Source of the DNA: a virus
Virus record (IMG/VR): IMGVR_UViG_3300015245_000043
Location: 1 to 52,167 of that record
Length of the DNA stretch: 52,167 bases
Strand: one strand, 5' to 3'
This document shows positions 12,279-52,123 of the stretch, one piece after another. Every line of letters starts with the position of its first letter. Within the stretch, counting starts at the first letter, position 1. The position numbers and the translations under genes are program-made. A model generated the notes under the pieces. It worked only from the letters and a program-made list of their open reading frames with translations. It did not search any database and had not been told where the DNA came from.

Positions 12279-12775
12279 CACAGGCAGACACCCCGAAGCC
12301 GCAAGGCATCGATCTCTACGCCCACCCCAACGGGCAGATCATCATCCGCGTTCCCAAGGGCGACGGCACGCAATGGAGTGTTCACGACCTTGGCACGACC
12401 AACCTGGAGACGGCGCGCAAGGGACTTCGCCGCTACCTCTCCAAGAACAAGATCACTGGTATCGACGCCGAGAAGGCGCTGGTGAACAGCCGCTACGGCC
12501 AGCTAGAGGACAACGGCGTCCCGGTCGCGCGGCAGATCAGGGAGAAGCGCATCGCCAGCGGCGAGTACAAGGCTCACAAGGGCAACGGCCGGGCGCTGGT
12601 GCCATACATCGAGGAGAACGCCGCCAAGGCCCGCGCGGCGCTCGCCCGGCAGCGCGAGCGGTCGAAGCGCATGGAGAGAGCCGGCCCGATGATCGCCGCC
12701 CTGGCGGCCTCTATGGAAGCCGCCGCGATCAACCTGCGCGAGCTACAGTCGATCATCACAGGAGACGACGAATGA
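12275..12775 (+). CDS. Hypothetical protein upstream of integrase
   Basis: This 166-residue protein starts at an ATG overlapping the previous stop by 4 bases and ends overlapping the integrase start by 4 bases. The N-terminal half looks strand-rich (GIDLYAHPNGQIIIRVPKGD). The C-terminal half is helical and basic (KARAALARQRERSKRMERAG). No family is recognised. The strict coupling to integrase suggests a role in integration or lysogeny. Confidence 0.6.
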   Translation: MTQADTPKPQGIDLYAHPNGQIIIRVPKGDGTQWSVHDLGTTNLETARKGLRRYLSKNKITGIDAEKALVNSRYGQLEDNGVPVARQIREKRIASGEYKAHKGNGRALVPYIEENAAKARAALARQRERSKRMERAGPMIAALAASMEAAAINLRELQSIITGDDE

Positions 12776-14061
12776 AACACCAGCGGGCAGGCCGCCCCTC
12801 AACCGGCCCGATCCTGCACAAGCGCGGCGAAGGAAACTACGTGCTGCGCGGGACCAAGAACGGTCAGGACTACCAGGTCAGCACTGGCACCAAGGTGCTG
12901 GCCGAAGCCCAAGCCTTCGAGGACCGTTTCAAAGCGGAGAAGCGTCACCTGGCGGCGCGCGGCGACAAGCTGACGCACGCCGCCGGCTACCTGCAATGGC
13001 GCGAGGAGATCGGCGTGAAGAAAGCCGACGCCCTCGCCAAGATCGACGGCGCCATGTGGCGTCTCGGCATCTACCAGCCGCCCGACGAGCCGGCGGCGCT
13101 GTTGCCGAAGGCCAGTCTAGGCCCGCGCCTGATCGCCGAGATGGCGCACGACGAGGAAGCGATGGACACCTACTGGAATAATCTCCAGGCCGAACCGTTC
13201 ACTTATATGCGCTTCCGCAAGCCGCGCAAGGCGGCGGCGGTGCAGTCGGACGCTAACATCCTGTACCTACAAAGCCTGGTGCTGACGTACTTGAACTTCC
13301 TCATCCGGCGCAAACGCATCGCCTCCGACCTGGTCCCGGTGATCAATTGCCGGAAGGCGTCGGAGCCGCGCGAGGAGGTCTATACCCATGACGAGATCGA
13401 CGCCATCGTCAGCGCGGCGGCGGCGATGTCGCCGCGACCGGACCTTGGTCCGCCCTGCCGGGAGCATCTGTTTGTCGTCATCGCCTACAAGACGATGGCG
13501 CGCAGCGACCGCATCCTCAATGCCCGATGGGACTTGGTCGATTGGGACAATATGAGCTTCGACTTCACCCGCGTCTACTCGCCGATGGGGCGCGAGCGCA
13601 AGCAGCCCGATCGCCGGCATCTGCGCGGGATCAAGCCGGCGCCGTTCGCCGAACTTGACGAGGAGCTATACGACCTGCTTCGATGGGCTTGGAAGTGGAA
13701 GGGCAGCGACACCGACTACGTCCTCGGCTCGAAGGCCAGCCTGTACAAGAAGCTCCAGGCTGTATTACGCGCCGCTGGTCTGGTCGACGAGGAGGGTGAG
13801 GTCAGAGGTTCCGGCCACACCTTCAAGCACACAGGTTTGACCCATCTGCTCGCCGGCAATCGGCGTCTCGGCATTCCGGCAGTCGATCCCCAAAAAGCAT
13901 CCGACATCTCGAATACCTCGGTCCCGACTATTCAGCGCGTCTACTACAAAGTCATCGGCGGTGATCATGCTGAGATCACCCGCAAGAGCCTATCAATCGG
14001 CCGCCAGCGGCAACCCGATAATGTTGCGTCACTGGCGGCCAAGAGGTCGCGTCGATCGTAG
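12772..14061 (+). CDS. int: Tyrosine recombinase (phage integrase)
   Basis: This 429-residue integrase is counted from the ATG at 12772; a longer open frame upstream is the shadow of the previous gene. The N-terminal 60 residues (GNYVLRGTKNGQDYQVSTGT) suit an arm-binding domain, followed by a helical core-binding domain. In the catalytic domain the first Arg lies in KTMARSDRILNARW (about residue 245), box II is GHTFKHTGLTHLL with Lys in place of the usual Arg, as in some alphaproteobacterial integrases, and the nucleophile is in SVPTIQRVYYKV near residue 400. It integrates phage DNA into the host chromosome. Two hairpins follow immediately. Confidence 0.88.
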   Translation: MKHQRAGRPSTGPILHKRGEGNYVLRGTKNGQDYQVSTGTKVLAEAQAFEDRFKAEKRHLAARGDKLTHAAGYLQWREEIGVKKADALAKIDGAMWRLGIYQPPDEPAALLPKASLGPRLIAEMAHDEEAMDTYWNNLQAEPFTYMRFRKPRKAAAVQSDANILYLQSLVLTYLNFLIRRKRIASDLVPVINCRKASEPREEVYTHDEIDAIVSAAAAMSPRPDLGPPCREHLFVVIAYKTMARSDRILNARWDLVDWDNMSFDFTRVYSPMGRERKQPDRRHLRGIKPAPFAELDEELYDLLRWAWKWKGSDTDYVLGSKASLYKKLQAVLRAAGLVDEEGEVRGSGHTFKHTGLTHLLAGNRRLGIPAVDPQKASDISNTSVPTIQRVYYKVIGGDHAEITRKSLSIGRQRQPDNVASLAAKRSRRS

Positions 14062-14541: not shown

Positions 14542-17500
14542 TCAACGAAAGCCAGCGCTCTCGCCGGTACTCTGCCGGAAACCACTTCCGCTGCTAGCGC
14601 TCTCGCGGAAGCCGGCCGCGCCGCCGCTCTTGCGAGTGTGCTTCTTCCCGGCAAACAGATCGACGATCGCATTTTTCACCATCGGCGCCGCCGACGAGAA
14701 CATGGTCGACGACGCGATGGCTTCGCCGACGACGCCCAGGCGCCCGGCCGGCAGCGCTGAGATGCCGCCCTCGATCAGCGGCAGGACAGTCGAGCCATAG
14801 ATCGCCCGCACCAGCTTGCGCTTCGACGTGTTGGTGTGCGACGTGTCGCGCAGGTACTCCATCGTCGCATCGGCAAGCTGGTAGGGGATGGCGGCGTAGG
14901 CGCCGATGCCAAGGTCGGCGAAGGAGCGGTCGTACTTCAAGCCGCCAACCAGGGTGTTGACGATCGGGTCGAGCAGCCCGAACAGATTGGAGCGCGTCGC
15001 CAGGAGCATCGCCTTGTCGGTATCCGGCCGCTGCTCCCATTGGTCGCCGTTAAGCAGCTTCTCGCGACCATAGCCGAACAGCATCGCCATGCCGGCGGCC
15101 ACGCTGTAGCCAGCCATCATCGAGATCACGCGCGACGGGTCGCCGGTCTTGGCGCCCTGCGCGATCTTGCGGAGGGTCGACTTCTGCACATTGCGCCAGT
15201 AGGCGTAATTGAAGCTCATCAGCGCGAAGATCGCCCGCTGCGAGGTCGTCGCCCGTTCCGCCTTGTCGTACTTCTTCGGGTTCTGGATCGTGTAGTCAAC
15301 CAGGCGCGCGACGGCCTGGCTGTACTGCCGGCCCATCTCGCCGGCCTTCGCCATCTGGTCGATCGTCACGTAGCCGTCGTGATCGGTAAGGAACTTGGCG
15401 AACTTCGGCAGGTTGGCCTCGTCGATGCCAAGCTCGCGTAGCTCCAGCTTCGCGGTCGCGTCGCCGGCAGCGGCGGCTCTGGTCATCTGGTCAAGCTGCG
15501 CCCGGCCGACGATCGTCATCGCCGTGCGCTGGCCGCGCGTCAGCTTCGCCAACAGATTGCGCTCGTAGAATTGCTCCGTGATCCGGCGCTGCCAACGCTT
15601 GAACGCCTGGTCGCCGAAACGGTTGTGCATGATCTGCTCCATCCCACCGCGCGAGATGATGCCGTTCATGCGCGCGAAGTCCTGCGCCTCCTTGTAAAAC
15701 GCGCCGCCTGATAGCTGAGCGAAGGTGTGACCGAATGCCTTGGCGCCGTCGAGCGCGCCCCGGAAACCGCCGCGCGTGACGGCGGCGGTGAACGGTTCCG
15801 AAAGCGACGAGATCGCGCTGAGCGGCAGGAGCGCCACCTGGCCTAGCAGGTTGATCGCCGACGCCAGGTGACTGCTCACCGTGTTGTCGGCGCTGTAGGT
15901 GCCGTGACCAAGGATTGCCTGCGTCAACCGCTGCACGGTCTGAAAGTCCTCGGTGCTGAGACCGTCGCGCGATGCCTGGCGTAGGCGCTCCTGCATCTTC
16001 TCGCCGTTCGGCCCGAAGCGACGCGCGCTCTCGATCCGACGCGCCGACGCGATGCCGTAGCGTTGCAGCAATTCGAGCGGGTCGTGCAGCAGGTACTTCC
16101 GCATTACCTCGTCGGCCTCTTTCGGGAAGCTGCGCGGCTTCTCGTGGCGCTGGCCGAAGCCCAGGCCCGGCCGCGAGAATTCGATGTCGTCGCCGAAGAT
16201 CGCTTGCTGAAACAGCGTCTCCGCTGCCGTCACGTGATCGTCGAAGCCCATCTTCTTGAACATCGAGCCGGCGGCTTTGATGAACCCCTCGCGGTCCTTG
16301 CCGACCGCATCGGTGTCGAGCATGCGCGGCAGGTAGCCTGGCACGTAGCCGATGCCGGCGCCGACCTTCTCGGCATCGAAGTGCCGCAGGTCGAGGAGAT
16401 GGCGAAGCTCCGACCATGCCTTCCTGATCTCCGGCGTGACCCTGCCCGACGGCCGGCGCCGCGCCAGGAGATCGCCTAGCACCGCGCGCTCCTCCGGCTT
16501 CGAGAACCGGCCGAAGGCGGCCTCGATGGCGTTCTCGACCTTGTTGGCAAAGGCGTTGCTCGACCGCTCGACGGCTTCGGCGAAGGTCTCCGGCTGATGA
16601 CGCCCGCTGCCGCGATCGGTCGCGATCATGTCGACGTGTTCGGCCAGCGCCTTGCTGTGCGCGTACTTGGCGCGGATCGCATGCAGCACCGATCCCATCG
16701 GCGTCAAGCCAAGGGCGCGGCCCTCGTCGCGCCCGCGCTTGGCGATGTACGTCGCGCCCGACGCCGTCTTGGTCAAGGCGTTGCCAATGGTGCGGCCCAA
16801 CCCGCCGATGTCACCCGCCAGCTTCCGCCATAGCGCGGGATCAAACATCGGGTTGCTGTAGAAGGTCGACAATCCCTTCGATCCGCTGGTGCGCTCCAGC
16901 ACGCCCTCGATTGCTTCGAGGGTATTCGGGATCACCATCTTGGTCTCAGCACCGCGCGCCGTCTGCAAGGTGCGCTCGACGAAGGTCGGCGCCTCGTAGC
17001 CTGGCGGCGCCGGATGTTCCTTCGCAAACTCAGCGCCCGCGCGCCGCCCGAAGTCGTAGGACGGCCCGGTGCTGCGCCGATCGACGCCATGCACGCCATC
17101 GCGAAAGCCAAGGGCGACGCTAGGCTCCATGTGACTGCCGCCCGGCACCGCCTGCGTGTAGCGCCCCTGCGCGCTCTTGGTCATGCTGTCAATCGCGTTC
17201 TCATAGTCGCTGATCTTCCGCTCGCGAGCGCTCTCGGCAGCACGCTCCTCCTCGGTCGGGAAGGGCGCCTCGGTCTTGCGCTTACTCTCGGCGGTGTACT
17301 CGGCGATCCGTCGCTCTTGCGCTGCCGCCGCCTCTGCGCGCGGCTCCTCTAGCGATGACGTGAATTCCTTCTGCAACCGCTGCGCCGTCGCCTTCTGCTC
17401 CTTCGACGGCTTGAACGGCTCCGCTCCGGTGCGCGGCTGCGACATGCGCGCCTCCGGCGCCGGGCGCGGCGCCTTGCGGTACTTCATCGCCTCCTTACCG

Positions 17501-20500
17501 CTCAGCGGCGCCTCGAATTCGCCCGCGATCTTGTCGATGTTGGCGGCGATCTTCGGTTCGGTTCGGAAGCCAGCGGCCAGGCCGACGAGCTTGTCACCAT
17601 CGTAGAACGCGAACACGCTCCCGTCCTTGTCGGCCTTGACATCGAGACCGTGCTGGTTGACGGCATAGTCATAGAATTTAGCGTTCATCGCGACGACCTT
17701 GTCGCCGACCTTGCCGTACACGGTCGTCAGCTTCTCGCTAACCTGGTGCGCGAAGATGGGCTTGAATTCCTTGGTCGCCGCCTTCCGGCTCTTGTCCATG
17801 AATTCGCGCATCTGCTCTGCGTTGCGCGCGGCTTCCTTGATCGGCAGCTTCGACTTGCCCCACGCCTCGTCGTAGGCGGGATCGAAGCCCTTGCGCCAGA
17901 TCATGTTGCCAGTGCCTTGCCAGTCGCCCGCGCGCACGCGCTGATCGCCGACTTCGATCATGTCGCGCGGCGACGCTTTGTCGATGTCCTCGACGGCATG
18001 GTAACCCTCGCGCAGCGTCGGCGGCTCAGGGTAGCCGGTCTTTTTCAGATGCTCGTAGACGGCGATCTCGATCCTGGCCTTGCGCGCCTTCTCCATCATG
18101 GCGTGACGCTGTTGGTTCATGCCCTGACCCTTGGTCTGCTCCAGGGCATGTTCGGCGCCGGCGATCTCCTCCCGCGCTCGACCGATCATCTCGTCGAAGT
18201 GCTTATCGGTGTACTTGGTCTCGCGGTTCCAATAGGCGTCGACCAGGTTGCGATATTTCTCGCGCGCCTCATTGAGGTCGAGACCCTTCACGCCCTCGAA
18301 AGGCGGTCGATCCGCTTCCGGCGCTGGCTCGACGCGCTCGCCTAGATCAGTCTGCGGCTCTGACACAGGCTCCTCGACGGGCGCCTTGGCCTTCCGCGCA
18401 CGCGCCGGCTTCTTCGGTGCCGGCGTCGGTTGTGTTTCTACCGCCGGTCCCTGAGCTTCCGGTTGTGGCGCTGGCTCTGGCGCTGCCTCAGTCGCAACCT
18501 CTGGCGCAGGTTGCTCCGTTGCTCGCGCCTGTGCAACCGGCTCCTCGACCGGCGTTACTCGCTCCTGTGCAGCCGGCTCCGGCGCCGCAGCGGGACGATG
18601 CTCCGGCGCCGGCTCCGCTGCCGGTTCCGGCTGCGGCGCAGTTCTCGCCGCCGGTCCCGGTGCCTCCTTGATCGCCAGGGGCGCCAGGGGCGCCTCCTGG
18701 CGTGCCTGCGGCCTCTCTGGCGGTGGCTCAGGCCCGCCGGGCGGTGCTTGCCCCTCTCCCCCTGGCGGCGGCTCCTGCGGCCCGCCAGGCGCCTCGCCGG
18801 CCGGCGGCTCCTCGTAGCGCGTGAATTCGCGAGCGGAGAACCCTTCGCCCCTTGGATGATTGACGATCTCGAAGCGCTGGTCGGTCGCCTGCTGCGCCCG
18901 CACGATCCAACGCGCCGCCTGCTTCTGGTCGCCGAAGATGATCGGCCCGCCGCCGGTCGAAAGGACATAGCCATCGGGATCGGTGTGATACCGACCGTCC
19001 TGGTCCGGCGGCTGCGGTGTGTTGGTCGAGCGCTTCCCCTCGTAGCGCTGCCGCGCCCGCGCCTGTGCCTGCTCCTGCTCGCTGCGGCGGTACTGTGTGC
19101 GCTCGCGCTGCGACCGCGCCCTTTCCTCAGCCTGGCGCCGCATCTCCTCGTGGAAGCGGCGCATGACATCCTCGAAGGTCGGACGCGGCCGACCAGGGTG
19201 AGGACCGCCCGGCTGTTCGGGAAACGGCGCACGGCCGACGTGCGGCGGCTCGCCGACATCGGGCGGCGTCATCCGGTAGGTCTGGCGCTGCTCGCGGCCG
19301 ACACCCTCGCCTGGCATGCGCGCCGTCTCCGGCGGACGCGGCCCGCGCACGCGCTGCTGTACGTCCTGTGCCAGGCGCGGCTCCTTGGCGTAGCTCGTCG
19401 TCGAAAGGTTCCGCATCGGCACAACGTAGTCGATCGATCCCTCGACATCGCGGCCGGTCCTGGGATCGTAGCGCCGCACGACCGCATTCTTGCCTTGCTG
19501 CCGGACCACGCGAACCGGGAAGCCCTGGTCGAGGATCACGCGCTCCGGCGAAGCACCCATCGTGCGCCCGGCCGGTGACACGTCGACGGCGCCCGGCGTC
19601 TCGACCGCTCGCGCCCGCTGCCGCTCAGCAAGCGCGAAGGCACCGCCGGCTTCTCTCTGCCCCTGAATATCCGTCGGCGTCATTGGCTGGCGTGCTGCCG
19701 GTGCCGTCAGCCGCGCCGCTCCGGCCTCGATCGCGGGCGCGCCCTGCCCCTCCTCGGCGCGCATGCCGGCGCCGCCTTCGGCTCCCATCGCCCGCGCCTG
19801 GTGCGCGATCTCCTCCGGCGTCAGCCTGGTCGGCTGCGGCTCGATCACCGCCGACAGGTTGTACTTGCCGCTGCGAAGCTCCGTCGCCAGCGGCAGGCGC
19901 TCCTCGGCAGCGTAGCGCTCCGGCGTGATCACACCAGGCAGCGGCTCGCGCGCACGCGGCAGGTTGGCCGCGCCGGGCGCGATCTCGCCTTCTGCGACGC
20001 CAGTGATCTCGCGCCGCAGCGTCTCGACTTCGGCCTCTTGCTGACGCCCCTGCTTCGCCGCCGGCCCGCGCCGCTGCTCCGGCGGAACCGGCGCGCCCCC
20101 TTCGACCGGCGGCTGCTCTGTCATTGACAACCGCTCTTGCGTCGCCGCCGCCTGTCTCGCCTTCTCGACCGGATCGGCTTCGGCGGCCCGCCGCGTCTCC
20201 AGTCGCTTGGTCAGCACGTCGACCTGCTGCGGCGTCAATTGATCGGCGTGCGCGTCGATGAACGCCTGCACGTCGGGAGAGCGCGCGAATTCCGCCTGCT
20301 CCTCCGGCGTGATAGTCGAGACATCGATCGCCTCCGGCCGCACGCCGCGCTTGCGCGACAACCAATTCTTCGCGATCCCGATGAAGCGCCCGGCGATCGG
20401 CAACGCACCGCCGCCGACGGCGCTGGTGACGCCGGCCATAAGCGTCTGCGTCGGATCGTATTCCTTCCGCGCGCCGGTCGAGACCTGCGACCGCTGCACG

Positions 20501-21525
20501 ATTGGATCGGTGAGCAGACCGATCAAGCCATTGACGACGGCTTCGCGCCCGGCGGTCCTGAGCAGCGTCGCGCCGCGCCCGGCCGGGATGTAGTTCTCCG
20601 GTGAGAGCATGCCGCCGCCAAGCTCGCCGCCGACGGCGGCGACGTAGCCGGCGACATCATGCGCGCCCGGCATCGCCTCGTACTGACCGGCGACCTGATG
20701 CTCGCGCGCCAGCCAGCCGCCGTGCATCTGGTCATACTGAGCCTGCGCCCGGTTGCGCTCGCTGCGGAGATCATCGAGCGATCGGCCGGCGAACGGCCCG
20801 CCAAGCGTCTGCTGCGCGACATCGTTCGGGTCCATCGCAGCCGGCGCGATAATCCCGGTCAGCGGATCGCGAACCGGCGCCTGCGGCGAGATGTAGGTCT
20901 TGCTGGCACCGCCCGGCAGCGGCAGCGTCTCCTTGACCGGCATCTGAAAATCGCTGCCAAGCGGAAGCGCGACGTTGCTGCCCTGGCCCTCCGCGTAGGC
21001 GATGATCGCGTCAAGCTGCTCGACCTGGCGCGCGTACTGCTCGCCGGCTTGAACATTCGACCGCGCCTGGCCCAACAAGGTGTTCTCGAAGCCGCGCTCG
21101 CCATGCGCCAGGAAGCGCTCGCCGGCCGTCGGGTCGGCGATTGGCAATTGCGCCGCTGCGGCAATCGTCGGTCCCGGCCGCTGCGCCGTCTGCGTCGCAA
21201 TGTCTGCGGCTTGCACCGTCGGCCCGGCGCGCATCGTCGTGCCGGTGTTCGGATCGTAGGCGGGGATCGCCTGCGGCGGCGTCGGCGCGCCGAAGATGTC
21301 GGGCAGCGTGCGCGCCAGGTCGGCGTGCAGCGTCGGCGATGCCGCCGGTCGCGGCGCTGAGACTTCGGCGTCGCTGAAAGTCCGCTTCGCCGTCGGCGCC
21401 GCTGGCGCTGCCGACTGCTGCGGCGCTGAGACTTCGGCGTCGCTAAAGGTCCGCTTCCTAACAGGCGTCTCGGTCGCCGCTGCCGGCGTGAACAGGAGCG
21501 GGATACTCAGCCGATCATCGGGCAT
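14542..21525 (-). CDS. Giant virion protein (2327 residues), probably ejected with DNA
   Basis: This is the last and largest gene of the late operon. The N terminus carries a direct repeat KRTFSDAEVSAP (about residues 24-35 and 47-58). Long proline-, alanine- and glutamate-rich tracts occupy the middle. A region near 1150-1350 (LDLNEAREKYRNLVDAYWNR and following) and a mostly helical last third (YSNPMFDPALWRKLAG, GYVPGYLPRMLDTDAVGK) appear folded. The C terminus ends in repeated GFR motifs (GSGFRQSTGESAGFR). The plan resembles the large polyvalent or internal virion proteins of podoviruses, packed in the capsid and delivered into the host. No enzymatic motif was recognised with confidence. 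The transglycosylase is on the preceding gene. Confidence 0.75.
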   Translation of the reverse strand: MPDDRLSIPLLFTPAAATETPVRKRTFSDAEVSAPQQSAAPAAPTAKRTFSDAEVSAPRPAASPTLHADLARTLPDIFGAPTPPQAIPAYDPNTGTTMRAGPTVQAADIATQTAQRPGPTIAAAAQLPIADPTAGERFLAHGERGFENTLLGQARSNVQAGEQYARQVEQLDAIIAYAEGQGSNVALPLGSDFQMPVKETLPLPGGASKTYISPQAPVRDPLTGIIAPAAMDPNDVAQQTLGGPFAGRSLDDLRSERNRAQAQYDQMHGGWLAREHQVAGQYEAMPGAHDVAGYVAAVGGELGGGMLSPENYIPAGRGATLLRTAGREAVVNGLIGLLTDPIVQRSQVSTGARKEYDPTQTLMAGVTSAVGGGALPIAGRFIGIAKNWLSRKRGVRPEAIDVSTITPEEQAEFARSPDVQAFIDAHADQLTPQQVDVLTKRLETRRAAEADPVEKARQAAATQERLSMTEQPPVEGGAPVPPEQRRGPAAKQGRQQEAEVETLRREITGVAEGEIAPGAANLPRAREPLPGVITPERYAAEERLPLATELRSGKYNLSAVIEPQPTRLTPEEIAHQARAMGAEGGAGMRAEEGQGAPAIEAGAARLTAPAARQPMTPTDIQGQREAGGAFALAERQRARAVETPGAVDVSPAGRTMGASPERVILDQGFPVRVVRQQGKNAVVRRYDPRTGRDVEGSIDYVVPMRNLSTTSYAKEPRLAQDVQQRVRGPRPPETARMPGEGVGREQRQTYRMTPPDVGEPPHVGRAPFPEQPGGPHPGRPRPTFEDVMRRFHEEMRRQAEERARSQRERTQYRRSEQEQAQARARQRYEGKRSTNTPQPPDQDGRYHTDPDGYVLSTGGGPIIFGDQKQAARWIVRAQQATDQRFEIVNHPRGEGFSAREFTRYEEPPAGEAPGGPQEPPPGGEGQAPPGGPEPPPERPQARQEAPLAPLAIKEAPGPAARTAPQPEPAAEPAPEHRPAAAPEPAAQERVTPVEEPVAQARATEQPAPEVATEAAPEPAPQPEAQGPAVETQPTPAPKKPARARKAKAPVEEPVSEPQTDLGERVEPAPEADRPPFEGVKGLDLNEAREKYRNLVDAYWNRETKYTDKHFDEMIGRAREEIAGAEHALEQTKGQGMNQQRHAMMEKARKARIEIAVYEHLKKTGYPEPPTLREGYHAVEDIDKASPRDMIEVGDQRVRAGDWQGTGNMIWRKGFDPAYDEAWGKSKLPIKEAARNAEQMREFMDKSRKAATKEFKPIFAHQVSEKLTTVYGKVGDKVVAMNAKFYDYAVNQHGLDVKADKDGSVFAFYDGDKLVGLAAGFRTEPKIAANIDKIAGEFEAPLSGKEAMKYRKAPRPAPEARMSQPRTGAEPFKPSKEQKATAQRLQKEFTSSLEEPRAEAAAAQERRIAEYTAESKRKTEAPFPTEEERAAESARERKISDYENAIDSMTKSAQGRYTQAVPGGSHMEPSVALGFRDGVHGVDRRSTGPSYDFGRRAGAEFAKEHPAPPGYEAPTFVERTLQTARGAETKMVIPNTLEAIEGVLERTSGSKGLSTFYSNPMFDPALWRKLAGDIGGLGRTIGNALTKTASGATYIAKRGRDEGRALGLTPMGSVLHAIRAKYAHSKALAEHVDMIATDRGSGRHQPETFAEAVERSSNAFANKVENAIEAAFGRFSKPEERAVLGDLLARRRPSGRVTPEIRKAWSELRHLLDLRHFDAEKVGAGIGYVPGYLPRMLDTDAVGKDREGFIKAAGSMFKKMGFDDHVTAAETLFQQAIFGDDIEFSRPGLGFGQRHEKPRSFPKEADEVMRKYLLHDPLELLQRYGIASARRIESARRFGPNGEKMQERLRQASRDGLSTEDFQTVQRLTQAILGHGTYSADNTVSSHLASAINLLGQVALLPLSAISSLSEPFTAAVTRGGFRGALDGAKAFGHTFAQLSGGAFYKEAQDFARMNGIISRGGMEQIMHNRFGDQAFKRWQRRITEQFYERNLLAKLTRGQRTAMTIVGRAQLDQMTRAAAAGDATAKLELRELGIDEANLPKFAKFLTDHDGYVTIDQMAKAGEMGRQYSQAVARLVDYTIQNPKKYDKAERATTSQRAIFALMSFNYAYWRNVQKSTLRKIAQGAKTGDPSRVISMMAGYSVAAGMAMLFGYGREKLLNGDQWEQRPDTDKAMLLATRSNLFGLLDPIVNTLVGGLKYDRSFADLGIGAYAAIPYQLADATMEYLRDTSHTNTSKRKLVRAIYGSTVLPLIEGGISALPAGRLGVVGEAIASSTMFSSAAPMVKNAIVDLFAGKKHTRKSGGAAGFRESASSGSGFRQSTGESAGFR

Positions 21526-46873: not shown

Positions 46874-49111
46874 CTAATCGTCGTCGTCGCCTGCCTCGCC
46901 GGCCGGGTCGAGATAGGTGACGCCGATGCCTCTCTCGACCTTGTCGTCGCGCAGCCATAGGCCGCGCACGCGATGCCGGTACTTCCCTGTCCTGTAGGTC
47001 TGGAACCCCATCTGCTCCATCACGGCGCGGAAGCGGCCGATGCTATGGATGTAGCGGGTGTCGCCGAAGTGGATCGCGTGATAGGAGCGGAAGGCGCTGT
47101 AGAAGTCGTTGACCGTGTCGCCGTTGGCGGCGCCCTCCTTCGGAGCGACGCGCGTGCAGGCGGCTTCGATGAATTCGATCTCCGGCGCGTTGCTGCTGAT
47201 CCAGATCGCCTGCGCGTCGACGCCGGCTCTCGACGGCAGGATGTAGCTGCGGCTGATGACGCCGGAAAGTGCTGAAAGCATGCGGTTTAAGATCCCGCTC
47301 ATCTCTTTTCGATCTGACCAGATCGACGGCCAGGGCGAGTGCTGGCGCTCCTCTCGCTTGTATTGCCGGCGGAATTCCATCACCAGCGCGCGGTCGCGCG
47401 TTCCCTCGCTGAGGTCGGCGGTCGACGGCCAGGAGTTACAGAGGATCACAGGGAAGGTGCAGCAATTGAAGTTCACGTCGTTGACGTACTTCTTGGCGGC
47501 GTTGATCTGCTTGGCCTCGCTGATCATCTTCAAGGGACCGTCGGGTAGCACCGCCTGATAGTTCATGTCGTCGTCGAGAAAGAGCAGCTTGCCCTCTAGC
47601 TCCGAGAGCGCGAAGCGGTCGGTTTTCAGGTTCTCGATCCGGCCGGCTTGCACCGTGCCGGGCGGTAGCATCGCGCGCACGGTCATCAGCAGCCGCGTCT
47701 TGCCGTTGTGGCCGCTGCCCTTGCAGATCAGGTAGCAGCGCGCGTCGCGCCAGGGTGTCAGCGCGTAGCCCATCGCTTCGAGCAGCATGCGCTCGTTGTC
47801 GGCCTGGTCGTAGACGTGCAGCATGCGGCCCGGTCCCTGCCGGACGCTGGTGTCGCCGTTGACGAGCCGCTGCGCGGTCGCGGCGTAGTCGTCATCGCCA
47901 GCGCGCACGATGTAGTAGGTCTCGCTGAGGACATCGGCGAAGGCGGCGTCGAAACGCGGGCAGACGCTTCGCGGATCGTAGTCGACATCGCAGCAGTAGG
48001 TGAGCAGGTCATCGGGATCGTGCGGCTTGAAGATGATGCCGCCATCGGCGGTCGAGATCAGGATCGTGCCGTTGGCGAGATTGAGGATCGGGCGCAGCGC
48101 CATCTCCGGCCGCAGCAGCGGTGAGAGCCGGTCGTGTACTTCGGCTTCGAGCAAGCCCATCGCTTGCGTGACGGCGGTGTTCACGTTCTGCGGCCTGGCG
48201 TCGCCGATGCTCATCATCAGCGCCGGTTGATCGAGCGCGACGTGCTGCATGTCCTTCTTGATCAGGTTGGCGTCGATCCGGTCCCAGGCTTTGCCGCCGT
48301 AGCGCCACCAGGCGGCGTTGTGGAAGGCGAGCTTGCCGAGACCGTAGAGACCGCGCACGGCATCGGCCAGGCGGCGCGGGACATCGTAGGTCCGGTCCAT
48401 GTCGCGCCGTAGCTGCTCGAATGTCATCTGCTTGCGGAGGGTTTTCAGGCTGATCCCGGTCGCGCCCTTGATCCGGTGCAGGAGATCGTCGACCTGGACA
48501 GGCGTCAGGCTGGCGTCGACGATGGCGGTGATCGCCGTCGCGCAGTCGTCGACCGTGCTGTCGGCCGCCAGCAGATCGACGGCGCCGCCGATCTCGACGT
48601 AGCCTGGCGCCGTCGGCGCGACTAGCTCGACCGGCGGCGGGTTGACTTCTACGTCAACCTCGTCGTCGTGATCGAAGTCGAGGTCGTAGATCAGCGTGCA
48701 GCGCCCGCCGCTCTCCTCCCAGGCTTGCTGCGCCAGCCAGCGAAAGCCGACGTGACAGTGAGCCGGATCGATCCCCTGCCATAGCCTGTCGGCGGTCTCG
48801 ACCGCCTTCGGGTCGCTGCTCCATTGGCCGCACCAATCGAGCCAGGCGGCATAACCCTCGCCGCTCTTGGCGGTCGCGGCAACGATGGCATGGCCCATCG
48901 TCACCCAATACTCGCGCGAGCGCGGATCGTTCGGCCGGATCGGCAGGTAGCGCAGCGCCTCGACGACGGCGTCAATCGAGGAAGCGAGGAGATCGCCGGA
49001 CGGCGGCGCGTGACCGTTCGCCTTGGTCGGCTTGCGCGGGCGCTGTAGCGGGACGTAGTCGATCGCGCGGAGCGCGGCGGCGATCCTACCAGTGATCGGC
49101 GAGTTGCTCAT
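46874..49111 (-). CDS. D5-type primase-helicase (helicase chain)
   Basis: This 745-residue protein is counted from the ATG at 49111 (MSNSPITGRIAAAL), with AGGA 9 bases upstream. The N-terminal part holds a PriCT-2-like domain (YWVTMGHAIVAATAKSGEGY, WLDWCGQWSS). The superfamily 3 ATPase occupies about residues 450-600: ICKGSGHNGKTRLLMTV is Walker A, LLFLDDDMNY is Walker B, and ILCNSWPSTADLSEGTRDRA carries the sensor residues. The C terminus has a winged-helix region. It would unwind the origin and partner the separate Prim-Pol product encoded upstream, whose gene end overlaps by 26 bases. Confidence 0.87.
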   Translation of the reverse strand: MSNSPITGRIAAALRAIDYVPLQRPRKPTKANGHAPPSGDLLASSIDAVVEALRYLPIRPNDPRSREYWVTMGHAIVAATAKSGEGYAAWLDWCGQWSSDPKAVETADRLWQGIDPAHCHVGFRWLAQQAWEESGGRCTLIYDLDFDHDDEVDVEVNPPPVELVAPTAPGYVEIGGAVDLLAADSTVDDCATAITAIVDASLTPVQVDDLLHRIKGATGISLKTLRKQMTFEQLRRDMDRTYDVPRRLADAVRGLYGLGKLAFHNAAWWRYGGKAWDRIDANLIKKDMQHVALDQPALMMSIGDARPQNVNTAVTQAMGLLEAEVHDRLSPLLRPEMALRPILNLANGTILISTADGGIIFKPHDPDDLLTYCCDVDYDPRSVCPRFDAAFADVLSETYYIVRAGDDDYAATAQRLVNGDTSVRQGPGRMLHVYDQADNERMLLEAMGYALTPWRDARCYLICKGSGHNGKTRLLMTVRAMLPPGTVQAGRIENLKTDRFALSELEGKLLFLDDDMNYQAVLPDGPLKMISEAKQINAAKKYVNDVNFNCCTFPVILCNSWPSTADLSEGTRDRALVMEFRRQYKREERQHSPWPSIWSDRKEMSGILNRMLSALSGVISRSYILPSRAGVDAQAIWISSNAPEIEFIEAACTRVAPKEGAANGDTVNDFYSAFRSYHAIHFGDTRYIHSIGRFRAVMEQMGFQTYRTGKYRHRVRGLWLRDDKVERGIGVTYLDPAGEAGDDDD

Positions 49112-49748
49112 CGGTGACCGTCCTAACGTGTTCTGCGAGCAGGTCCGTGAGGGTCGGTCGACCGTTGACCGCATGCCAGGTGTAGGGCTTGCCGGTTTTG
49201 GGGTGAATGCCCTCGATGACGAATTGCTGACCGACGCCTAGAAGCTCGACCGCTGAGGTCTGTCCGGTGAAGGCGTTGGCGAATGCCTGGCGCTCTTTCT
49301 TGCGCGCGGTCGCCGGCCGGAACGGGACCAGGAAGCCAGGCGGGCGCCCGATCCTGATGCCGCAGCCGGCGTCGACGATGAACGGCAGCAGCGAGTTATA
49401 CACAGCCTGCGCGAACGTCTCGTCGAGCGTGTCGACATCGATGGCGTGGATATGTCGAGAATTCAAGCCGATGCCGTATGGCTCCGACGACATGCTGTTA
49501 TGCCACTTGACAAGTGTTTCACGTGAAACATCGGCGTGCGTCCATCCCTTGAAGCCGATCCAGCCGTCGGCCAGGCGCAGGCCCGGTATCTTCCCTAGCT
49601 TGTCGGCGGTGATGTTCGGCCCGGCGTCGACGGAGATCGGCGCGCCCGGCGGGATGATGGGAAGCAGGTCCGAAGTGTGACCGAGATCGGCCCATTTCAT
49701 GAACCGATTGACGGCAGGATCGAATTCAGCTACGGGAATGTAGGCCAT
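49086..49748 (-). CDS. Prim-Pol family primase/polymerase (primase chain)
   Basis: This 220-residue protein resembles the AEP-type bifunctional primase/polymerase domain. GIGLNSRHIHAIDVDTLDET carries the D-x-D catalytic pair, then IRIGRPPGFLVPFRPAT and the TSAVELLGVGQQFVIEGIHP block with the conserved His near residue 180. Many phages fuse this domain to a D5 helicase; here it is a separate upstream gene. The start has GAGGT at 6 bases. It would make primers for phage replication. Confidence 0.82.
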   Translation of the reverse strand: MAYIPVAEFDPAVNRFMKWADLGHTSDLLPIIPPGAPISVDAGPNITADKLGKIPGLRLADGWIGFKGWTHADVSRETLVKWHNSMSSEPYGIGLNSRHIHAIDVDTLDETFAQAVYNSLLPFIVDAGCGIRIGRPPGFLVPFRPATARKKERQAFANAFTGQTSAVELLGVGQQFVIEGIHPKTGKPYTWHAVNGRPTLTDLLAEHVRTVTDEQLADHW

Positions 49749-50453: not shown

Positions 50454-50489
50454 CAATAAAAATCCCCGCGCCGATCGCTCGACGCGGGG
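50454..50489 (-). terminator. Rho-independent terminator of the one-gene unit
   Basis: On the minus strand CCCCGCG (50489-50483) and CGCGGGG (50470-50464) form a 7-bp G+C stem, followed by ATTTTTATT. This is a textbook terminator 12 bases after the stop of the gene at 50501. Confidence 0.85.
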
Positions 50490-50500
50490 TGATCATGAGA

Positions 50501-51055
50501 TCAGGAATGCTCAACGCCTAACTTCTGGTAGTAACGCCGTTGCTTGTCAAGTTTTCGCAGCGCCGTCTCCGCTCGATTGGCCTTCCGTTGCCAGGCGGTG
50601 ATCCGCTCTAGCACCTGACTGTAGCGATCCTGCCGTAGCTGATCGGCGGTCGCCTTCATCTTCGGCTCGCGTTTCAGCTTGCCGTCGAGCCAACCGGACT
50701 TGACGACATAGTCGATCATCTCGCGCTCTAGGAACGCATGCCGCCCCATGCTGTCGTGCGCCTTCTCGTTAGGGTGAAGGCGCCAATGGCAATGGTGCGA
50801 GACGCTGTGAACGATGCAGCGCCAGCCCTCGTCGGGGTTGACGACGCCGCGATAGATCGACGTGCGACGCCGGCCCGACGTGATCCGCAGCGGTGTCTTG
50901 CGCCGCAGCGGTCGCTTCATGGCGAAGCGGTAGAGCAGCTTGACGGCGGTGATCGCCTCGTCGCCATCGAGCTTAGGCAGAGGTCCGTTCGGCCAGGAGC
51001 CGTTGACCGACGCATAGCGTCGCTCGCCGGCCCGTTGTTGGGTCGCAATCTCCAT
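50501..51055 (-). CDS. Conserved phage hypothetical protein in its own transcription unit
   Basis: This 184-residue protein is counted from the second ATG (51055), which has GGAGA at 6 bases; an ATG at 51061 abuts that site. Features are EITSGRRRTSIYRG-like strands (RITSGRRRTSIYRGVVNPDE), a histidine-rich centre (CIVHSVSHHCHWRLHPNEKA, then GRHAFLEREMIDYVVKSGWL) that could bind metal, and a basic C-terminal helix (ERITAWQRKANRAETALRKL). The block is known from other phages but unassigned. A consensus promoter and a terminator bracket it, so it could be expressed in the lysogen, like a moron. The first codons encode a copy of GGAGATTGCGACC. Confidence 0.7.
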   Translation of the reverse strand: MEIATQQRAGERRYASVNGSWPNGPLPKLDGDEAITAVKLLYRFAMKRPLRRKTPLRITSGRRRTSIYRGVVNPDEGWRCIVHSVSHHCHWRLHPNEKAHDSMGRHAFLEREMIDYVVKSGWLDGKLKREPKMKATADQLRQDRYSQVLERITAWQRKANRAETALRKLDKQRRYYQKLGVEHS

Positions 51056-51105
51056 AGTCATTCTCCACGATTTACAAGAGCAAGCCGCCTCTCGGCGACG
51101 CCTTC

Positions 51106-51134
51106 ATTATACCAGTTCCAATAAACAATGTCAA
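51106..51134 (-). promoter_or_regulatory. Consensus sigma70 promoter
   Basis: On the minus strand TTGACA (51134-51129) and TATAAT (51111-51106) are both perfect and separated by 17 bases. It lies about 50 bases upstream of the gene at 50501-51055 and overlaps the stop of the zinc-binding gene. This is the strongest promoter seen in the window. Confidence 0.9.
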
Positions 51135-51349
51135 CCCACTTGATTTGCTCGCTTTTTCTCTTGCTCTCTTTTGAGGAAGCATTTCCAGCAATCCTCGCGC
51201 CCCGGTGCCATGTCATCTTCGACCTGGTTCTGGCAGAGCGGCCCGGTGTAGAGCCAACGCCCGCACAGGCTGCGCCCCTCGCGGAAGAAGTGTGCCTTGC
51301 GCGCCAGGCCCGGCCAGGCCCATCCGTCAACGCTCGACATTGTCGTCAT
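51131..51349 (-). CDS. Small zinc-binding hypothetical protein
   Basis: This 72-residue protein starts at the ATG at 51349 (or 51340). It contains WAWPGLARKAHFFREGRSLC, GRWLYTGPLC and EDCWKCFLKREQEKKR; the cysteines form two pairs (SLCG..., DCxxC) suitable for zinc. Similar small proteins are frequent in phages infecting varied bacteria and have no fixed role. Its start overlaps the end of the lipoprotein gene. Confidence 0.6.
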   Translation of the reverse strand: MTTMSSVDGWAWPGLARKAHFFREGRSLCGRWLYTGPLCQNQVEDDMAPGREDCWKCFLKREQEKKRANQVG

Positions 51350-51494
51350 TGTTTCCGTTGATCTCGTAGTGCTGATGAACTTCAACGAAGCAGAACATCA
51401 CACAGACCGGCTCGATGAACGGCGTGAAGCGGGCGCTGTTGGCGCCGCAGCCGCTCAGCATCAGCGCTAGTAGCAGCCATCGACAAATTGTCAT
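51327..51494 (-). CDS. Small predicted lipoprotein, paralogue of 1949-2131
   Basis: This 55-residue protein is counted from the ATG at 51494, preceded by GGAGGG. The N terminus (TICRWLLLALMLSGC) is a lipoprotein signal with lipobox LSGC. The mature part has EPVCVMFCFVEVHQHYEING, matching the left-end lipoprotein in the PxCVxxC pattern. It is divergent from the proline-rich gene, whereas at the left end the pair is co-directional. Envelope location is expected; function is unknown. Confidence 0.68.
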   Translation of the reverse strand: MTICRWLLLALMLSGCGANSARFTPFIEPVCVMFCFVEVHQHYEINGNNDDNVER

Positions 51495-51577: not shown

Positions 51578-52123
51578 ATGTCTAGAGGGTTCCTAGCCTA
51601 CATCCTGCCGATCGATAGCGACGCGCTTCCGTCGCATCCGATCGCGCCTGGCGGCCCGCCGCCGATCCCGACGCATCCGATCTTCTATCCGCCGGAGGTC
51701 ACGCATCCGATCGTGATCCCGCCCGACGCGGTCGCGCCCGGCGTGCCGTCGCATCCGATCTATCTGCCGCCGCCTGTGCCGGGCCACCCCATCGTGATCC
51801 CGCCGGAGGCTATCGCGCCTGGCGTGCCGACGCATCCGATCTACATTCCGGCGCCGGCACCAGGTCACCCCATCGTGATCCCGCCCGACGCGATCTCGCC
51901 AGGCTCGCCGTCGCATCCGATCTACATCCCGGTCGAGCCGTCGCATCCGATCGTGCTGCCGCCCGGCGCCGGCCAAGGCGGCATCATCGTCGTGCCGCCG
52001 AGTGATACTGGACAGCCGCCGATCGTCATCCCGGCCAACAAGCTCGAAGCCGTGCGAGCGTTCCTGACCGGCAACCTGCCGCCAGCACCCGGCGGCCCGA
52101 CGCCGTCGCCAGTCAAGCGGTAA
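51578..52123 (+). CDS. Proline-rich repeat protein, paralogue of 1308-1943
   Basis: This 181-residue protein is built of units of about 25 residues: PGHPIVIPPEAIAPGVPTHP followed by IYIPAPA, occurring about four times with variation, then QPPIVIPANKLEAVRAFLTG near the C terminus, where the repeats stop. GGGAGG precedes the ATG. The first residues (MSRGFLAYILP) differ from the repeats. As with the left-end paralogue, no signal peptide is evident. An extended rod or surface-adhesive role is possible; nothing more can be said. Confidence 0.8.
   Translation: MSRGFLAYILPIDSDALPSHPIAPGGPPPIPTHPIFYPPEVTHPIVIPPDAVAPGVPSHPIYLPPPVPGHPIVIPPEAIAPGVPTHPIYIPAPAPGHPIVIPPDAISPGSPSHPIYIPVEPSHPIVLPPGAGQGGIIVVPPSDTGQPPIVIPANKLEAVRAFLTGNLPPAPGGPTPSPVKR

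Follow-up and report, generated by a model that had tools for sequence, protein, structure and literature searches.

The window, by which we mean the whole stretch of DNA that was analysed, comprises the 52,167 bases of an IMG/VR virus record. On its minus strand a single gene is enclosed by a promoter and a terminator of its own (Table 1). Nowhere but at this promoter does the window match the sigma-70 pattern at 12/12 (0.001 expected analytically, none in 40 shuffles), and the TG at 51114-51113 that precedes the promoter's -10 makes this an extended -10. The terminator, CCCCGCGTCGAGCGATCGGCGCGGGG ATTTTTATT, is a hairpin of 11 pairs (p=0.00 in 100 shuffles). The full open reading frame, 50501-51061, encodes 186 aa from ATG 51061, the codon from which residues are numbered here; translation more likely starts at ATG 51055, given the GGAG 7 nt upstream of that codon. 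A first-pass annotation had seen the perfect promoter, the T-tailed hairpin and a single conserved gene between them; all three hold up, and chance explains neither the promoter nor the terminator nor the gene's conservation. Beyond the view of that annotation was a conserved leader between promoter and gene.

Table 1. Features of the one-gene unit and of its product.
Feature	Position in window	Strand	Remarks
Sigma-70 type promoter TTGACA-17-TATAAT	51106..51134	(-)	12/12 match, unique within window; -35 TTGACA 51134-51129, 17-nt spacer, -10 TATAAT 51111-51106
5'-terminal RNA hairpin GUCGCC-GAGA-GGCGGC	51084..51099	(-)	starts ~7 nt after -10 (about +1); z -2.4
boxA-like element TGCTCTTGTAAA	51071..51082	(-)	directly after hairpin, 4 nt before Shine-Dalgarno
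Shine-Dalgarno GGAG	51063..51066	(-)	sequence; 7 nt before ATG 51055
CDS, 184 aa from ATG 51055 (186 aa from ATG 51061)	50501..51055	(-)	predicted SprT/minigluzincin-like metal-site domain and basic C-terminal helix
Metal-site domain, about residues 16-134		(-)	predicted core
HSVSH (residues 85-89), degenerate HExxH metal-binding helix	50795..50809	(-)	H85, H89 invariant in family
H102, candidate third metal ligand (SprT-like HG position)	50756..50758	(-)	invariant
E112, glutamate in following helix; candidate gluzincin-type third ligand or relocated base	50726..50728	(-)	invariant
Basic C-terminal helix, residues 139-185	50507..50647	(-)	also found in L124/G026
Intrinsic terminator hairpin with T tail	50464..50489	(-)	sequence and shuffles

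A primase/helicase replication operon follows the gene on the same strand. Two overlapping minus-strand ORFs (46874-49111 and 49086-49748) match consecutive parts of the phrog_1156 primase (28-196 and 241-830 of 855) which may mean that the gene is split, that it is frameshifted or that the sequence is in error. On the other side, a small minus-strand ORF (51131-51385) that matches phrog_2358, a phrog of unknown function (E 2e-16), ends at the promoter -35, and the plus-strand ORF at 51578-52123 is proline-rich, with repeats of the type SHPIVIPPDA.APG.PSHPIY.P. The window also holds a minus-strand ORF (14542-21525) for a virion protein of 2327 aa that matches phrog_30152 in its C-terminal part, and a terminase that is nearest to those of Microcystis phage Mae-Yong1326-1 and Rhizobium phage RHph_N65. 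From an integrase-like gene at 12772-14061 (+; phrog_1 at 1e-15, Pfam Phage_integrase at only 0.0066), the window phage may be temperate.

Relatives of the gene are known from viral contigs and from one isolated phage. The family consists of 18 IMG/VR sequences at 29-55% identity and one sequence in an Erythrobacter phage: tblastn against 50,697 phage records returned a single relative, an ORF of Erythrobacter phage vB_EliS-L02, and ~18 further contigs came from pattern-seeded IMG/VR searches with growing alignments. The Erythrobacter phage ORF (L002, 3938-4618) is unannotated in its record; Brevundimonas giant phages and Erythrobacter phage XM05 also carry its C-terminal domain. Two pattern-seeded scans of 84,980 species genomes, of limited sensitivity, found no relative, nor did a plasmid search. 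Synteny is absent: neighbours differ at all family loci, the relatives and the window's phage have no genes beside the family gene in common, and no close relative of the window phage without the insert was found for comparison. Given the lack of shared neighbours, the block behaves as a unit; because promoter, leader, gene and terminator recur jointly in phages with differing neighbour genes, it is almost certainly an autonomous one-gene unit. A strong hairpin lies directly 3' of the family gene in 11 of 18 relatives (p<=0.04).

The leader of most relatives is built on one plan: the extended -10, a hairpin 5-7 nt downstream of it, the motif [TG]GCT[GC]TTTGA[AC]A right after the hairpin, and then, after a further ~3-12 nt (4 nt to GGAG in the window), the Shine-Dalgarno sequence. 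The window's own element is degenerate, matching this family consensus at 10 of 12 positions (~0.002 by chance at that place), and leave-one-out nhmmer did not recover the window's leader or boxA; L002, L003, L004 and L017 are without boxA or without the whole leader. The AT-rich relatives L019 and L023 carry AGTTCTTTTAAATCGTGAATA / GCTATTTAACATTGTGAATA, which likewise resembles boxA and lies some 30-55 nt upstream of the start. In the records of the gene family the motif, at no more than one mismatch, is present once or absent, and BLASTN of the leader against phage records gave no match. Since the stems differ in register and the loops in length, RNAalifold on a MAFFT alignment of the leaders yielded no consensus pair; the leader model (R1) is therefore a sequence-only one, and an arm-swap permutation was used in place of RNAalifold. 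By that test the arms of the hairpin covary: the two arms of one hairpin pair better than arms taken from different leaders (0/5000 for 22 leaders), and an exact permutation on 8 family leaders, chosen independently of the motif, gives p=2e-4.

The same leader stands before other genes. An exact-motif scan is dominated by chance matches; when only matches with a promoter are kept, the leader is found ahead of unrelated small ORFs in other phage contigs. An IMG/VR scan for the promoter only, in which the motif was not used, led to 32 places (three of them near-identical copies), in 25 of which a boxA of at least 10/12 lies within 70 nt, where chance would give 1%; these boxA-bearing places lie mostly ahead of unrelated single genes. 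Of 28 records searched with the sequence model, 24 have one leader and none has two, although a single copy per record may merely reflect the rarity of the cassette. The gene family is absent from 14 of 15 leader-only records, the ORF of the fifteenth sharing only the C-terminal helix and having a phrog_3754 head; in 9 of 13 leader-only units a strong hairpin follows the stop codon (p=0.00). We have very little doubt that the leader module is real across phages; a literature search found no description of such a phage leader.

The cargo behind this leader is of zincin-like, SprT/TIGR04338-like, cysteine-protease-like and orphan kinds. Among the proteins so placed, L163, L167 and L124 are phrog_3754 proteins with the motifs GDC.ARA.AIA... 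and SRHY.A.IDG, from which we read the phrog_3754 head as putatively cysteine-protease-like; in L124/G026 this unrelated head is joined to the basic C-terminal helix of the window protein. L169 and L174 are basic helical proteins in which RWRSRL.RA...DKLE.QR resembles that same helix. Another cargo is an HExxH...HGWQF protein that matches TIGR04338 at 5.5e-11 (below the curated cut-off) and SprT weakly at 1.1e-4; TIGR04338/SprT-like HExxH proteins stand behind the leader in L178, L181 and L115, the contig piece of the last holding the first codons only. The TIGR04338 family metallohydrolases of L178 and L181 share with the window protein the promoter-hairpin-boxA leader and an HxxxH with a later His in register; they differ from it in retaining HExxH and HGWQF, and beyond the motif there is no significant sequence similarity.

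The yardstick for the motif was a set of leaders from plasmid-borne rrn operons of alphaproteobacteria. The phage consensus matches the rrn boxA, about 190-305 nt before 16S, at 12/12 in Sphingobium and Ruegeria and at 11/12 in Methylobacterium, Acuticoccus, Phyllobacterium and Paracoccus; Ensifer and Aureimonas match at 10/12, and the Azospirillum match is not convincing. In L018 (GGGCTCTTTGACAGGTGAAT) and L009 (TGCTGTTTGACAATCGAATA) the likeness to rrn continues past boxA (GTGAAT, GAATA). The rrn antitermination leader (boxB hairpin-boxA) likewise has its hairpin upstream of a boxA of the same alphaproteobacterial sequence; the cassette differs from it in placing boxA directly before the Shine-Dalgarno sequence, in serving one short gene and in being closed by an intrinsic terminator. 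In E. coli, translation of suhB is repressed by a boxA that lies 6 nt before its Shine-Dalgarno sequence and recruits Nus factors; a Citrobacter koseri ParE-like toxin gene is likewise repressed through boxA and NusB (PMC5725501). The cassette has in common with these boxA-regulated mRNAs an rrn-type boxA a few nt before the Shine-Dalgarno sequence and within ~50 nt of the start codon; it is distinct from them in being phage-encoded, in its alphaproteobacterial type of boxA, in its covarying 5'-terminal hairpin and dedicated promoter, and in being common to unrelated genes. We consider it rather likely that the leader motif functions as boxA, and the suhB and toxin precedents would make Nus control the most likely mechanism for the cassette.

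The product of the window gene includes HSVSHHCHWRLH, a histidine-rich centre that the first-pass annotation took to suggest a metal site, and comparison within the family supports this: L43, G63, H85, H89, H102, E112 and W124 are invariant across 19 aligned sequences, so that the cluster looks like a genuine, if predicted, metal site. Pfam, NCBIfam, PHROGs, PADLOC and Rfam scans of gene and window were uninformative for the gene: no Pfam or NCBIfam zincin model matches the protein, the SprT-like profile (PF10263) gives no match above cut-off, and profile searches of PDB sequences brought chance-level matches only. A reading as IrrE/ImmA (Peptidase_M78) was set aside, one member alone reaching E 0.049. 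The spacing of H102 is SprT-like (a His some 12-20 residues after HxxxH), in register with the later His of the TIGR04338/SprT-like proteins of L178/L181.

A structure was predicted with AlphaFold2 from the family alignment (whole protein, pLDDT 89.8; core, pLDDT 92.7 and pTM 0.87). The model orders the predicted core as a helix, short strands, the HxxxH helix and the E112 helix, followed by the long basic C-terminal helix; this order fits the minigluzincin pattern (helix, small sheet, HxxxH helix, Glu helix, ~110 residues). Foldseek against the PDB ranks the minigluzincins abylysin and selecase first, second and fourth (top matches 4jiu and 4qhi), at weak E-values of 0.76-2.7; against viral models an unnamed protein comes first (E 4e-5), followed at low probability by SprT-like phage proteins, which are the best named viral matches. 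Since Wss1 and Spartan (SprT) are classed as minigluzincins (PMC4559962), the SprT and minigluzincin pointers agree. We consider a zincin-like fold probable.

The window protein's predicted small alpha-beta core, HxxxH helix and later invariant His and Glu are like those of SprT-like/Spartan metalloproteases (PF10263) and minigluzincins; the window protein differs from them in its lack of a profile match, in its extra basic helix, and in having Ser at position 86, the place of the catalytic Glu of HExxH. Position 86 is hypervariable in the family (S/D/E/M/T/G), its six states requiring 10 changes on the tree; HExxH is intact in two members (HELSH in L017, HEISH in L019). We infer a metal-site domain of SprT/minigluzincin-like kind that lacks the usual general base. 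We do not class the protein as a SprT member, profile and catalytic Glu having both been looked for and neither found. We lean toward regarding it as a pseudo-enzyme rather than an enzyme.

These facts can be assembled into a model, which on balance we prefer to its alternatives and hold with restraint: an autonomous single-gene phage cassette, read by the host and modulated by Nus factors, with a metal-binding SprT/minigluzincin-like product. Host RNA polymerase would transcribe the cassette without phage factors, and the 5' hairpin would protect the end of the transcript. NusB-S10 binding to boxA would modulate expression, either by covering the Shine-Dalgarno sequence (the suhB precedent in E. 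coli) or by keeping Rho off the transcript. The product would bind metal through His85-His89 plus His102 and/or Glu112, and its basic helix would contact nucleic acid or protein; with the catalytic Glu of HExxH missing in the window, the scaffold would be more likely to bind a partner than to cleave peptides by the usual zincin route.

Two alternatives concern the place of the unit in phage life. One is that it is a classical moron, active in a repressed prophage and with an effect on host fitness, exclusion or defence. The first-pass annotation pointed this way, and the architectural half of its proposal stands: like morons and accessory loci of temperate phages, the window unit consists of one gene that has a sigma-70 promoter and a terminator to itself, independent of unrelated neighbours, and the integrase-like gene would suit a temperate phage. 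Prophage expression that changes the host is unsupported, however, there being no relative in the species genomes or plasmids scanned and no known lysogen, and the suggested exclusion or defence role finds no backing in PADLOC, which has no match to the window protein; the cassette also departs from morons in that its genes vary behind a conserved promoter and structured leader. We think this reading improbable as a whole. Still less probable is an analogue of lambda pL-nut-N-tL1, in which the leader would be a nut site, the product an antiterminator, and read-through of the terminator would feed the replication operon. The order of elements in the window (promoter, hairpin/boxA, gene, terminator, replication genes) and the basic helical C-terminus of the product are as this reading would have them, but the gene family is missing from nearly all leader-only phages, there is only one leader copy per record, and in relatives the replication genes do not adjoin the gene. 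Antitermination of the lambda N type was set aside, protein and leader failing to co-occur and genomes failing to carry several nut sites.

The other alternatives concern the product and the leader. An active SprT-like protease, for example one that clears protein from DNA or attacks a host factor, with its base moved to Glu112 or with active Asp/Ser variants, would account for the invariance of H85, H89, H102 and E112; it is in keeping with position 86 being Glu or Asp in 9 of 20 members and with the HExxH SprT/TIGR04338-like protein under the same leader in L178/L181. Against it, the other 11 members have Ser, Met, Thr or Gly at that position, and so many changes on the tree are unlike a conserved zincin enzyme; we judge activity unlikely. 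It is likewise unlikely that the leader is no more than an mRNA-stabilizing 5' hairpin followed by an unstructured ribosome-entry stretch, its likeness to boxA being coincidental: the hairpin at the expected +1 and the motif near the Shine-Dalgarno sequence would be explained, but not the perfect agreement with rrn boxA of Sphingobium and Ruegeria, nor the extension of the likeness into the rrn sequence after boxA in L018 and L009.

For the preferred reading, of a host-read and Nus-modulated cassette, the consequences reach beyond this gene, which itself adds a zincin-like family that keeps the metal site but not the catalytic glutamate. Promoter, hairpin and boxA together provide a sequence handle that picks out one cargo gene per record in dozens of phage records, the products being mostly unannotated orphans. 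It is conceivable, though we put it forward only tentatively, that alphaproteobacterial phages share a standard cassette, a fixed promoter-hairpin-rrn-boxA leader with interchangeable cargo, whose expression is tied to the host's supply of Nus factors, that is, to the rate of rRNA synthesis. The findings suggest that phages borrow the boxA signal of ribosomal RNA to control accessory genes. Should Nus control prove real, the boxA regulation of mRNAs that is represented by suhB and a toxin gene would extend to phage cargo.
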